From IMG/VR virus record IMGVR_UViG_3300044620_000348, positions 1 to 35,249 of that record: 35,249 nt of DNA; one strand, 5' to 3'. The translations under genes were made by a program, and so were the position numbers. Below, in pieces: positions 476-35,179 of this stretch. How positions within the stretch are numbered: position 1 is the stretch's first letter; each line of letters starts with the position of its first letter. The notes under the pieces were generated by a model, which saw only the letters and a program-made list of their open reading frames with translations, was not told where the DNA came from and ran no database searches. The DNA comes from a virus.

Positions 476-787
476 ATGCACACACCAGAACTCTCAACAG
501 CAACGACCTTCAAGAATTGGAAGGGCACAGAATTTTTCCACTACAATCACTTAACCGGCACAATGGTCATGGTTGTAAATGACGGCTGCATCAAAGGGCT
601 ATACACCCGATGCGACTCTCAAGCCGCTAACCTCGCACGCCAGTACCATCGCAGCATGGAGCACGGCGTTGCACCAGAGAAACGCCTTTGGGATCCTTGC
701 AAGATGGATGAATTCCACAATCAGTTTGCGCTCGTTACCGAGTATCTTCACGAACAATCAACTCAAGCACTTTTAACCTCAATTTAA
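476..787 (+). CDS. Conserved hypothetical protein, 103 aa
   Basis: ATG 476 opens a soluble 103-aa protein with many aromatic and histidine residues. I recognise no family. It is the first gene of the early operon after the cassette terminator, and the SSB-like gene follows 10 nt later. The copy at 34868-35179 differs by only a few substitutions, such as CKMDEF versus CNMEEF. That conservation beside a fully replaced gene suggests purifying selection on this protein. Its place at the head of the replication block hints at an early role, which is an inference. Confidence 0.7.
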   Translation: MHTPELSTATTFKNWKGTEFFHYNHLTGTMVMVVNDGCIKGLYTRCDSQAANLARQYHRSMEHGVAPEKRLWDPCKMDEFHNQFALVTEYLHEQSTQALLTSI

Positions 788-2596: not shown

Positions 2597-3183
2597 CACG
2601 CGAAGACTACATAAAATACCCAGCGGTAAGCGCAAGCAGGATCAAACGATTCTACACGGGAGACATTAGCTATGCAAAGGCATCGCTAAACTATGGCAAG
2701 GACTTCCACTATTCGCTGCTTGAGTGCGACTATTCAGAGATGGGCGATGCAGTGCGCAATACCTATGATGCAATTCACCAGGTGGAACTACTTGGCGAAC
2801 TCTTCGACAAATCCGAGAAGGAGCGCATCGTGGTGAGTGAGCTCACAGTTGGAGACAAGACCGTGCTCGCCAAGGGTGCGATGGATATCTGCTGGGATGA
2901 GATGAAGATAATAGCTGATGTGAAGACCACAACGGCCAAGAATCTGCAAGCCTTCGCTGATGACATGATAAAGCACTTCAACCATGTGCAGGCCGTTTGG
3001 TACTGCATGTTGATGGGCTGGGATCCGAAAGACTTCTACTACATCGGCGTGCCTCCAAAGGTCAAGAAGTCGGGGCAGTTCAAAGACCTCTACCTATACC
3101 GGCACAACCAGCAAGAGCTCGATCATGCTTACGAGCTAATCGCAAATTTCCTCAATCAATTCGATGGTAACTATGGGAAGTAA
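2593..3183 (+). CDS. RecE/lambda-exonuclease-like PD-(D/E)XK nuclease
   Basis: This 196-aa protein shows the ordered motifs of RecB-family exonucleases: GKDFH with His39 and LLE with Glu44, then Asp98 in KGAMD, the catalytic pair Asp109-x-Lys111 in ADVKTT, and Gln133-x3-Tyr137 in QAVWY. It resembles the RecE/exonuclease VIII (DUF3799-type) group, which resects double-stranded ends for recombination. It is coupled by 4 nt to the gene before and overlaps the HTH/HNH-like gene after it. No obvious RecT annealase is visible; the coiled-coil and SSB-like proteins upstream are the nearest partner candidates. Confidence 0.8.
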   Translation: MTREDYIKYPAVSASRIKRFYTGDISYAKASLNYGKDFHYSLLECDYSEMGDAVRNTYDAIHQVELLGELFDKSEKERIVVSELTVGDKTVLAKGAMDICWDEMKIIADVKTTTAKNLQAFADDMIKHFNHVQAVWYCMLMGWDPKDFYYIGVPPKVKKSGQFKDLYLYRHNQQELDHAYELIANFLNQFDGNYGK

Positions 3184-3790
3184 GTATCCAAAAGAGGTGA
3201 TTGACTACGTCATCCAGCACTATCCAACAACGCGGACAGCAGAGATGGCTGAGGTGCTCGGAATAAGCATAAACAAGGTGCATCAGCTCGCAAACTCTCG
3301 CGGCATCAAAAAGACAAAGGAGTACATCCGCGAAATACATGGTCCTGTTGTGTCACTTGCCGGAATAAACAACCGATTCTACAAAGGCCAAGAGGCTTGG
3401 AACAAAGGAATAAAAGGACGGAACAACGCACCAGAGCATACGCTATTCAAGCCGGGCCATCTGCCTGCAAACCACAAGCCAATCGGATGGACTCGCGTGG
3501 ATGGCGAAGGCTACACATGGATGAAGATCGCAGAAGGCCGTCAAGGCTGGGTTATGATTCACCGCCTTGCCTGGGAACTGGAGAACGGCCCGATACCTGA
3601 AGGCAAGTTCCTTCGCTTCATCGATGGCAACAAAGACAACTGGCAAGTGGAGAACCTCATGCTGGTAGATCGCGAAAGCAACATGCGACTTAACACAATT
3701 CACCGATACCCTGAAGAGGTAAAATCGGCAATGAAAATACTTTCTAAACTAAAACGTAAAATCCAAACACATGGCAAAGAACAAGATTGA
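3164..3790 (+). CDS. HTH protein with a degenerate HNH-3-like domain
   Basis: The N-terminus (about residues 8-50) reads as a helix-turn-helix (TTRTAEMAEVLGISINKVHQ). The C-terminal part follows the HNH_3 layout: HRLAWELENGPIP, then FLRFIDGNKDNW, then VENLMLV. In canonical HNH_3 nucleases the middle block carries His-His before the Asp; here those positions are Arg and Phe. The variant with Ile-Phe or similar at this spot is frequent in phage proteins annotated as HNH, so DNA binding may matter more than cutting. Met 3164 and Met 3173 are both possible starts; either overlaps the exonuclease gene. Confidence 0.75.
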   Translation: MVTMGSKYPKEVIDYVIQHYPTTRTAEMAEVLGISINKVHQLANSRGIKKTKEYIREIHGPVVSLAGINNRFYKGQEAWNKGIKGRNNAPEHTLFKPGHLPANHKPIGWTRVDGEGYTWMKIAEGRQGWVMIHRLAWELENGPIPEGKFLRFIDGNKDNWQVENLMLVDRESNMRLNTIHRYPEEVKSAMKILSKLKRKIQTHGKEQD

Positions 3791-9973: not shown

Positions 9974-10285
9974 ATGGCAGGCGGTAGAGGTAAAATAGAG
10001 CCAAGATGGAAGAAGGGCGAAAGCGGCAATCCCAACGGCCGTCCGCCAAAGCTTCCAGACTTGCACATCTTGCTGGCCAACGTGCTTGGCAAGGAGAACA
10101 AGGACGGGCTGACTGCTGCCGAGGAGATACTTCTGGCACTTCATGCTAAGGCTAAGAAGGGTGACACCAGAGCAGCCGAGCTGCTTCTTGACCGAGGCTA
10201 TGGCAAGCCGAAGCAGACCAGCGAAACCACTCTCAAGACTACTGAGCCGCTTGTGATCATCAAGACCAAAGACAGCGATGATTAA
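9974..10285 (+). CDS. terS: Putative small terminase subunit (DUF5681-like)
   Basis: The 103-aa protein starts MAGGRGKIEPRWKKGESG followed by NPNGRPPKLPDL. The 'KGxSGNPxGRP' signature is typical of DUF5681 proteins, many of which precede a large terminase. A helical middle (AAEEILLALHAKAKKGDTRAAELLLDR) would suit DNA binding and oligomerisation. It lies directly upstream of a TM peptide gene and the large terminase, supporting a role in recognising phage DNA for packaging. Confidence 0.7.
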   Translation: MAGGRGKIEPRWKKGESGNPNGRPPKLPDLHILLANVLGKENKDGLTAAEEILLALHAKAKKGDTRAAELLLDRGYGKPKQTSETTLKTTEPLVIIKTKDSDD

Positions 10286-10415
10286 GGGCGCAGTGATAAC
10301 GGTTGCTACCTTGCTGCTATGTGCGGCCTTTGGCTGGTTCATCATCCTTGCGGTGCAGTCATTCATGAAAGACCATCAAAATGATGACGATGATCACTTA
10401 TGGCCTTCAGTTTAA
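10278..10415 (+). CDS. Short single-pass membrane peptide, 45 aa
   Basis: ATG 10278, overlapping the small-terminase stop by 8 nt, opens a 45-aa peptide. Residues 5-26 form one hydrophobic segment (AVITVATLLLCAAFGWFIIL), followed by an acidic/His tail (DHQNDDDDHLW). No family is recognised. Its last codons include the first copy of the duplicated large-terminase start sequence. Confidence 0.5.
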   Translation: MIKGAVITVATLLLCAAFGWFIILAVQSFMKDHQNDDDDHLWPSV

Positions 10416-10452
10416 CCAAATAAAAACGGCATATGGCCTTCAGCTTAACCAA
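10400..10452 (+). repeat. Direct repeat of the large-terminase start region
   Basis: ATGGCCTTCAG(T/C)TTAACCAA occurs at 10400-10419 and again at 10433-10452 with one mismatch, 33 nt apart and so in the same frame. The first copy reads MAFSLTK followed at once by TAA; the second reads MAFSLTKRQ and opens the terminase frame. It looks like a tandem duplication of the initiation region. Confidence 0.8.
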
Positions 10453-10528
10453 GCGACAAACTAAAGCTTTTAATCAGGCAACGGCAGGCACACACAGGGT
10501 TGTGGTGTTTGGTGGGGCCATACGATAA
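10433..10528 (+). CDS. terL: Large terminase, N-terminal segment ending at an internal TAA
   Basis: ATG 10433 encodes 31 residues and stops at TAA 10526-10528. KRQTKAF has the form of the adenine-binding Q motif found upstream of terminase ATPase cores. The segment ends VVVFGGAIR, the first half of a Walker A loop. The second half, GGKTYW, lies 39 nt downstream in the same frame (10565 on). Joining residue 31 to it restores GAIRGGKT, a perfect GxxxxGKT motif. The segment is thus the true N-terminus of the enzyme, separated by a gap that is either bypassed or a disabling insertion. Confidence 0.75.
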   Translation: MAFSLTKRQTKAFNQATAGTHRVVVFGGAIR

Positions 10529-10564
10529 TGGCCCCTGCTGGCAACGGTGGGGGCAAAGTCCCGA
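10514..10564 (+). other. Bypass-like element: hairpin, stop codon and matched CGA codons
   Basis: CGA (10523-10525) is followed at once by TAA (10526-10528). A second CGA (10562-10564), in the same frame and 39 nt further on, is followed by the resumed terminase sequence. GGGGCCAT (10514-10521) and ATGGCCCC (10528-10535) form a perfect 8-bp stem whose 6-nt loop, ACGATA, holds the first CGA. T4 gene 60 bypassing likewise uses matched take-off and landing codons, a stop after take-off and a hairpin. No experimental support exists here; a 39-bp insertion in a defective or mis-assembled genome would look the same. Confidence 0.5.
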
Positions 10565-11749
10565 GGTGGAAAAACATATTGGCTGCTGCTAACTCTCAGC
10601 TACCTTGCACTGGAATATCCGCGCAGCCGCTGGGTGATTATTCGCAGGAGCCTGCCGGATCTCAAGCGCACAACCTTTCCGAGCTTCAGCGCGATTCTCG
10701 ATGACGGCATCAACCAGTACGTCCAAAGTTGGAACAGGGATACGCAAGTGGTGACGTTCATCAATGGCTCTGAGCTGCTGTTCATGGCAGAGAGCTATGA
10801 CGATGACAAGGACCTCAACCGCTTCAAAGGGCTTGAGGTGAATGGCGCAGGCTTGGATGAGGTGAATGAATTGCAGGAGCAGACGTTCTACAAAGTGCAG
10901 GAGCGCATTGGCTCATGGAACAAGGCTGAAGGAAGGCCACCGATTGTCTGCATGGCAACGTGCAACCCAGCGAACAACTGGGTGAAGTCAATCATCTACG
11001 AGCGATACAAGGACGGCACGCTTCCGGAGCGTTGGAGCTTCATACCGAGCAAGATCACTGACAACCCTCACATCCCTGCTGAGTACCTGGAGTCGCTTCG
11101 CGAGCTGCCGCCTGTGCAGTACGCCCGATTCGTGGAGGGTGATTGGGATGTGATGGATGACGTGGCGAATCCGTTTCTGTATGAGTGGGCTGATGAGAAG
11201 CACATCGATGACAGTGTGCAGCTGAATCGCAATGTGCCGGTGCATGTGTCTGTGGACTTCAACATTAACCCGCTGTGTGCGCTTGTCATACAGCATGTTG
11301 GCAGGGGCGCGGTAGTAGTGGATGAGATAAAGATTGAGAAGGGCAGCGTGGATGCGTTCTGCGATGCGGTGCTTGCACTTGGCGTGCCGATGGGCCTCAT
11401 CAGGATTACGGGTGATGCGATGGGCAAGGGAGGCACAGTGCAGCAGCGTGACAACTCCAGCGCGTACACGCAGATCAAGCGGAGGCTCGGCATGAGTGAC
11501 AGCCAGTTCTTGATTCCAGCTAACCCAACGCACTACAACAGCCGCATCGATTGCAATGCTGCACTGCGTAAGTTGGATATTCGAGTGAACAGCAAGCGTT
11601 GCAAGGGATTCGTGTTCGATGCGAAGCAAGTGCAGTGCGATGCCAATGGAAGCATCATGAAGAGCAACCGAAAAAACTTATCTGAGCGTGCTGACTTCTT
11701 GGATTGTTTTCGTTACTTTGTGAACGCAATCCTAAAGCGATACTTATGA
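10547..11749 (+). CDS. terL: Large terminase subunit, ATPase and nuclease body
   Basis: The open frame continues in register from the upstream N-terminal segment; 10547 is only the first GTG after the internal stop. Visible are GGKT (rest of Walker A), SRWVIIRRSLPDLKRTT, Walker B near GAGLDEVNEL, coupling motif MATCNPANNW, and an RNase H-like nuclease with VDFNINP, ITGDAMG and DFLDCFRYF. The protein translocates DNA into proheads and cuts it. Begun at GTG 10547 it would lack the Q motif and have Ala where Walker A needs Gly, so it is unlikely to work without the upstream 31 residues. Confidence 0.85.
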   Translation: MGAKSRGGKTYWLLLTLSYLALEYPRSRWVIIRRSLPDLKRTTFPSFSAILDDGINQYVQSWNRDTQVVTFINGSELLFMAESYDDDKDLNRFKGLEVNGAGLDEVNELQEQTFYKVQERIGSWNKAEGRPPIVCMATCNPANNWVKSIIYERYKDGTLPERWSFIPSKITDNPHIPAEYLESLRELPPVQYARFVEGDWDVMDDVANPFLYEWADEKHIDDSVQLNRNVPVHVSVDFNINPLCALVIQHVGRGAVVVDEIKIEKGSVDAFCDAVLALGVPMGLIRITGDAMGKGGTVQQRDNSSAYTQIKRRLGMSDSQFLIPANPTHYNSRIDCNAALRKLDIRVNSKRCKGFVFDAKQVQCDANGSIMKSNRKNLSERADFLDCFRYFVNAILKRYL

Positions 11750-34867: not shown

Positions 34868-35179
34868 ATGCACACACCAGAACTCTCAACAGCAACGACC
34901 TTCAAAAATTGGAAGGGCACAGAATTTTTTCACTACAATCACTTAACCGGCACAATGGTCATGGTAGTGAATGACGGCTGCATCAAGGGCCTTTACACCC
35001 GATGCGACTCTCAAGCCGCTAACCTCGCACGCCAATACCATCGCAGCATGGAGCACGGCGTTGCACCAGAGAAACGCCTTTGGGATCCTTGCAACATGGA
35101 GGAATTCCACAATCAGTTTGCACTCGTTACCGAGTATCTTCACGAACAATCAACTCAAGCACTTTTAACCTCAATTTAA
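34868..35179 (+). CDS. Conserved hypothetical protein, 103 aa (second copy)
   Basis: It is nearly identical to the protein at 476-787, with CNMEEF in place of CKMDEF and mostly synonymous changes elsewhere. It follows the allele-B cassette in the same spacing. It is best read as the same gene met again on going round the genome, from a slightly different variant. Confidence 0.7.
   Translation: MHTPELSTATTFKNWKGTEFFHYNHLTGTMVMVVNDGCIKGLYTRCDSQAANLARQYHRSMEHGVAPEKRLWDPCNMEEFHNQFALVTEYLHEQSTQALLTSI

Follow-up and report, generated by a model that had tools for sequence, protein, structure and literature searches.

The large terminase gene (terL) of the virus record IMGVR_UViG_3300044620_000348 is interrupted in the sequence coding for the Walker A loop by a short insert, which is probably a mobile, homing-endonuclease-linked translational bypass element. 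The analysed DNA (hereafter the window) comprises positions 1 to 35,249 of this record, 35,249 nt in total. A preliminary description made from the letters alone had proposed a terL split in Walker A by a bypass-like 39-nt element, and this proposal is supported by insert-free homologues, matched codons flanking the gap, a gap length that is free modulo 3, stops within the gap and purifying selection on the gene.

The interrupted terminase gene of the window

The first part of the gene (ORF1) ends with VFGGAIR, followed by a TAA stop (10526-10528), and the same frame reopens at a CGA codon (10562-10564) with RGGKTYW and continues to 11749 (ORF2). The interruption thus lies in the Walker A loop of TerL, with 39 nt between matched CGA codons (Table 1). 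The DUF5681 ORF upstream of terL is the probable small terminase gene. The isolate nearest to the window TerL is Flavobacterium phage 11b (31.5% identity over 64%), from which a host belonging to the Bacteroidota is likely. Near-identical 103-aa ORFs with small differences are present at both ends of the window (476-787 and 34868-35179), which would suit a circular or permuted genome whose ends overlap imperfectly.

Table 1. Features of the terL region in the window
Feature	Position	Strand	Evidence
Small ORF upstream of terL, DUF5681	9974..10285	+	PF18932, E 3.5e-15
Imported tract (approximate)	10400..10575	+	Divergence from the insert-free relative L001; ORF1 dS versus ORF2 dS
First copy of duplicated terL start (MAFSLTK-stop)	10400..10423	+	21-nt direct repeat 10399-10419 / 10432-10452; 33 nt absent from L001
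terL ORF1, 31 codons, MAFSLTKRQTKAFNQATAGTHRVVVFGGAIR	10433..10525	+	Open reading frame; frame open to VFGGAIR in 48/48 carriers
Proposed take-off codon CGA, preceded by ATA	10523..10525	+	ATACGA in 47/47 contigs, bases left free
Intervening element, 36 nt separating both Arg codons (39 nt codon to codon)	10526..10561	+	
Extra G-C pair of the 39-nt class hairpin	10531/10554	+	
Conserved hairpin	10532..10553	+	Stem 10532-10540 / 10545-10553, loop GCAA 10541-10544
Purine-rich GGGGGCAAAG before the landing codon	10549..10558	+	Alignment A1 (29 distinct carrier regions)
Proposed landing codon CGA	10562..10564	+	Landing codons CGA/CGC/CGT across 48 carriers
terL ORF2, GGKTYW to stop, Terminase_6N	10565..11749	+	PF03237, E 4.3e-9; dN/dS

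A family of homologous inserts at one codon

Close homologues lacking the 39 nt, for which the preliminary description had suggested a search, are frequent: among the nearest 80 of 372 TerL loci, which were kept for comparison, 69 are uninterrupted and 11 have an insert at the same codon. A pattern scan of viral contigs returned 65 matches, corresponding to 47 true carriers and to 18 uninterrupted genes with an upstream ATACGA, which were dropped. Before counting, eleven of the nearest-TerL loci were removed as duplicates of pattern-scan contigs, and L081 was removed because it duplicates the window. The resulting 47 IMG/VR contigs and the window make 48 carriers, with a homologous insert at the same codon throughout. 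Its recurrence in 47 further contigs, drawn from many IMG metagenomes with different numbers, shows that the element reflects neither chance nor a single assembly event. The uninterrupted comparison set (n = 86) is composed of the genes nearest to the window and of chance pattern matches, and is not a random sample.

ORF1 codes for 31 aa and ends with VFGGAIR in all 48 carriers. The gap measures 39 nt in 22 carriers, 40 nt in one and 41 nt in 25, covering all three frame relations. The upstream frame meets a stop within the gap in 48/48 carriers. In the downstream frame, 43/48 have a stop within the element, and in 20 of the 25 elements of 41 nt this stop immediately precedes the landing codon. 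Given these stops and the three gap lengths, the family has no single frame that stays readable across the gap, whose length modulo 3 is free. The stop directly after the take-off codon, also pointed out in the preliminary description, is present in the window but is not a family trait, being found in 18/48 carriers, window included, all of the 39-nt class.

The match between take-off and landing codons claimed for the window (CGA in both cases) extends to the family as CGA to CGH in 48/48, the landing codon being CGA in 20 carriers, CGC in 14 and CGT in 14. When the third base of the Ile codon and the take-off and landing codons were left free in the pattern, ATACGA was found at take-off in 47/47 contigs (46 + 1), and since all these matches are among the known carriers, all have ATACGA and CGN; these patterns still had GGNGCNAT fixed upstream and GGNGGNAARACNTAYTGG downstream, and carriers with other flanks (e.g. 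GGSIR) would escape them. At the same site, uninterrupted relatives have ATA in 29/86 and CGA in 43/86. CGH is present there in 80/86 of them anyway (p 0.09), and matched Arg codons alone are therefore weak evidence. Across 36 distinct ORF1 sequences, ATA and CGA never vary, while most neighbouring codons do so synonymously; this fits a weak take-off pair but also common descent. A possible nascent-peptide signal in ORF1 is DMA at -17 to -15, present in 47/48 carriers (all except the window) and in 0/86 of the others; shared ORF1 ancestry would account for it as well.

The 48 carriers harbor 25 distinct element-plus-landing sequences. Most members have GGGGG 8-9 nt ahead of the landing codon, which could pair with the anti-Shine-Dalgarno sequence, and the purine-rich stretch listed for the window is a possible Shine-Dalgarno-like landing aid. 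Searches for the element in other genes returned the same locus: an element-only pattern gave 36 matches, 36/36 at the known carrier site, and a looser one matched 57 times, 47 times in the known carriers and 10 times at places with no terminase and no resumed frame, as judged by eye from the translations. A covariance model matched each of 13 carrier records and the window convincingly once, whereas six uninterrupted relatives gave no convincing match (best E 0.118). Finally, the bacterial genomes scanned with the carrier pattern gave 0 matches.

A conserved hairpin follows the take-off codon

In an alignment of 29 distinct regions from the 48 carriers (A1), a 9-bp stem closed by a G-N-A-A loop begins 6 nt past the take-off codon, with 98.9% of cells paired. 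Stem cells changed on both sides number 44 (shuffled mean 17.9; reached by 0/500 shuffles), and stem covariation is 0.501 versus 0.210 in shuffles, a value likewise reached by 0/500, slid versions of the stem giving at most 0.071. Two other counts do not exceed the shuffles, namely pairs changed on both sides (4; reached by 198/500) and further pair types (12; reached by 105/500). RNAalifold recovers the 9-bp stem unprompted, and single-sequence folds of the element have z-scores of -1.95 to -3.79 in four cases, with -1.54 for a 91-nt stretch of the window. The hairpin originally put forward was a different one, an 8-bp stem at 10514-10521/10528-10535. It is present in the window but is not conserved in the family, with 69.4% of cells paired, the third pair formed in 1/29 distinct sequences and a covariation of 0.046 versus 0.044 in shuffles.

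Interrupted terL genes are under purifying selection

The dN/dS ratio of ORF2 was calculated from pairs with dS 0.1-1.5 and full 395-codon sequences. Median values are 0.036 for the 39-nt class (136 pairs from 19 sequences, the window left out), 0.039 for the 41-nt class (22 pairs from 13 sequences) and 0.052 for uninterrupted relatives (797 pairs from 68 sequences). A clade of 18 on the tree that is composed entirely of carriers, 17 of them with full sequences, also has a median of 0.036 (135 of 136 pairs). ORF2 is 395 or 396 codons long in 37/48 carriers, runs off the contig in nine and is cut short by early stops in two (L112, L142). Neither the window nor any of 13 carrier records yielded a second TerL; some of these records may be incomplete (the TerL of L098 is split by contig ends). 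Strong purifying selection and a single TerL per record indicate that terL is kept although interrupted.

Patchy distribution and linkage to an endonuclease

On a TerL tree of the 126 rows (out of 134) with at least 235 codons, 17 changes are required to explain where the insert occurs, supported branches forcing at least 14 of them, and a single carrier clade is rejected (p-AU 1.5e-69). Such patchiness would be equally expected from recombinational loss of the insert as from gain. Both alleles can be found within one sample, e.g. 3300037041.

ORF1 is inherited together with the insert. It is nearest to that of another carrier in 47/48 cases (0.88-1.0, the best uninterrupted gene reaching at most 0.756), and the ORF2 (450 nt compared) of 8 of those 47 carriers is closer to an uninterrupted gene. 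In blastn comparisons of 12 carrier/uninterrupted pairs, seven lose homology either close to where the upstream small gene ends or at most about 170 nt before the landing codon, and regain it no more than 17 nt from that codon; L114 and L094 additionally show a short aligned stretch of ORF1 (79-80% identity). The DNA of the other five pairs, the window among them, aligns straight through with only a gap.

Relatives of a NUMOD4/HNH_3 ORF lie between the small gene and terL in 23 of the 45 carriers with at least 600 nt upstream and in 0/86 uninterrupted relatives; they are missing beside terL in the other 22/45, window included. Both the NUMOD4 and HNH_3 domains were identified in the two endonuclease proteins scanned. 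The endonuclease frames are open over 177-206 codons, stop to stop, in 23/23 cases, openness having been measured for all 23 and a motif filter having displayed 17 of them. On average over 13 independent tree pairs, the endonuclease follows the insert in 8.3, opposes it in 0 and does not distinguish the two members in 4.7 (median p 0.008). A scan with one endonuclease protein, which reaches close relatives only, detected 30 loci, 20 of them at 71-99% identity and all on carrier contigs; L167 (79%) ends inside the gene, and the remaining loci are at most 69% identical and either partial or distant. The HNH ORF at 3164-3787 of the window (phrog_1891, HNH_3) was considered as a mobility partner and rejected, close relatives being also present in the uninterrupted L001, L002 and L003.

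L086 and L082 share an identical ORF1 (90 nt), yet the C-terminal parts of their endonucleases are of two different types, which suggests recombination among endonuclease genes.

Other interrupted terL genes were encountered. In an unrelated phage (L170 2303-3420, the same contigs as L178, L179 with L171; and L177), another ORF of HNH type immediately precedes a different terL, which is likewise broken at Walker A by a 5-nt interruption, ...VLFIGG-TGA being followed by ACGGGKSH in another frame; L170 and L171 share 99.8% identity over 5,097 nt, so that this break may be one event or an error. In L181, L182 and L183, a related terL is broken after ...FRKHQGL by a longer out-of-frame stretch, which looks like an intron, and resumes at YTLICFDEATHF.

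Probable recent arrival of the insert in the window

Compared with the insert-free L001, the 100-nt blocks of the window in and around this region are 90-100% identical, except for two blocks at 10375-10575 (85% and 80%), which contain 33 + 39 extra nt. The dS between the two is 1.52 for ORF1 and 0.26 for ORF2, with an identical 30-residue ORF1 peptide. The duplicated terL start is likely a recombination scar. Given the diverged tract, the excess of ORF1 dS and the duplicated start, the most likely origin of the insert in the window is a recent local replacement by DNA of an unsampled donor. The window, which lacks DMA, is also alone among the carriers in having an ORF1 nearer to uninterrupted genes (0.833). 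The preliminary description had considered the gene either recoded or newly broken: the insert does look recent in the lineage of the window, but "newly broken" does not fit the family.

Proposed mechanism and alternative explanations

We propose that ribosomes would read ORF1 up to the CGA (Arg) codon in the Walker A loop, where the hairpin just 3' of take-off may stall them. The peptidyl-tRNA-Arg would detach from CGA, the ribosome would slide across 36-38 nt, and the same tRNA would re-pair with CGA, CGC or CGT ahead of GGN GGN AAR, giving ...GGAIRGGKT... with one Arg. CGA is read by an inosine-34 tRNA through a weak I-A wobble, and one tRNA-Arg ICG reads CGA, CGC and CGT. The insert interrupts a conserved terL sequence that is presumably cut by the neighbouring NUMOD4/HNH endonuclease, and may protect its carrier because it would break this target. 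Cutting and repair of insert-free alleles would then spread ORF1, insert and endonuclease as one, and the window would represent a carrier with no endonuclease beside terL.

Alternatively, the gap could be removed from the mRNA as a mini-intron of 39-41 nt that either excises itself or is processed by cutting and joining enzymes of the host or the phage, e.g. ATA^CGAURR...^CGN. Frame independence, the invariant ATACGA, the conserved hairpin and the endonuclease linkage suit an intron as well as a hop. We nevertheless regard splicing as unlikely: the Arg codon is kept on both sides of the gap, where one would suffice, no Rfam family attains its gathering score here (a sub-threshold pseudoknot, E 0.69, is the sole match listed), and no RtcB ligase was found in the 17 phage records searched, a result that concerns the phage side. 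The element is also much shorter than known self-splicing introns, all of which are, to our knowledge, far longer than 39-41 nt, and we know of no mini-intron this small in bacteria or phages. Slightly lower credence still is given to the full version, a mobile mini-intron of 39-41 nt built around one GNRA-type hairpin and spread by the neighbouring homing endonuclease.

It is very improbable that terL has become a split gene whose 31-aa peptide and ORF2 product are made separately and jointly rebuild the ATPase. ORF2 is long and open, and 24/48 carriers have an in-frame start codon between the last stop and the landing codon, but the other 24/48 have no such start, so that initiation would lose GGKT in these carriers. 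In addition, ORF1 stops exactly at the Arg, and a P-loop cut in two would not be expected to work. Ordinary frameshifting or stop read-through within the gap has even less to recommend it: the 39-nt class has one in-frame stop, and read-through would result in a 13-residue insertion expected to destroy the P-loop, while gaps of 40 and 41 nt shift the frame and most 41-nt elements (20/25) have the downstream-frame stop directly before landing. Finally, a dead gene or a sequencing or assembly error, to which the early ORF2 stops in 2/48 carriers might point, is just as improbable and is contradicted for the family by 48 records with 25 distinct element-plus-landing sequences and compensatory changes, by the median dN/dS of 0.036 in the all-carrier clade and by the finding of only this TerL in the 14 records tested.

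Comparison with known systems

The bypass element proposed here is analogous to that of gene 60 of phage T4, a topoisomerase gene in which 50 nt are bypassed in a programmed manner from Gly GGA to GGA, and which adjoins mobA, an HNH homing endonuclease gene called apparently defective (PMC5009743, PMC3014915, PMC11194080). The two share a gap of tens of nucleotides between matched codons, a hairpin at take-off, a neighbouring HNH homing endonuclease, relatives with a whole gene and an insert thought to be protective against the nuclease. The terL element differs in its gene, in hopping, as proposed, from Arg CGA to CGH over 39-41 nt, in its GNAA loop, and in having a stop beside take-off in 18/48 carriers only; no KKYK was seen in ORF1 of the window. 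Unlike mobA, the terL-linked endonuclease frames are open in 23/23, and unlike gene 60 there are dozens of members, with and without the endonuclease.

The mitochondria of Magnusiomyces capitatus contain 81 bypassed inserts described as independent of mRNA context (PMC5009743). They are likewise short and skipped by the ribosome, as we infer for terL, whereas the terL insert is found in one gene, as a single copy per record, and comes with a conserved hairpin and a linked endonuclease. The proposed hop of 29 nt in an adhesin gene of Prevotella loescheii, a member of the Bacteroidota like the probable host here, concerns a cellular gene and was reported once, with no follow-up according to the review (PMC5009743). 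The preliminary description knew of no bypassing in a terminase gene; an earlier suggestion of another kind exists for the terminase gene of Streptomyces phage Hau3, with a much shorter gap, a tie to a UUA codon and a suggested regulatory role, and the description of Hau3 in that review includes no insert family or endonuclease (PMC5009743). In the literature on terminases with bypass or homing endonucleases, titles and the beginnings of abstracts offered no comparable case, this review (PMC5009743) excepted.

Plain ORF calling would truncate interrupted terminases such as these. The setting is an essential enzyme whose active site hinges on correct landing. Programmed bypass in phages rests chiefly on one worked case, T4 gene 60. 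The terL inserts form a natural family of tens of members, which come in three gap lengths, have the endonuclease or lack it, and can be set against siblings with no insert. Such a family offers a way to study the sequence features that make ribosomes hop, and the origin and spread of elements of this kind.
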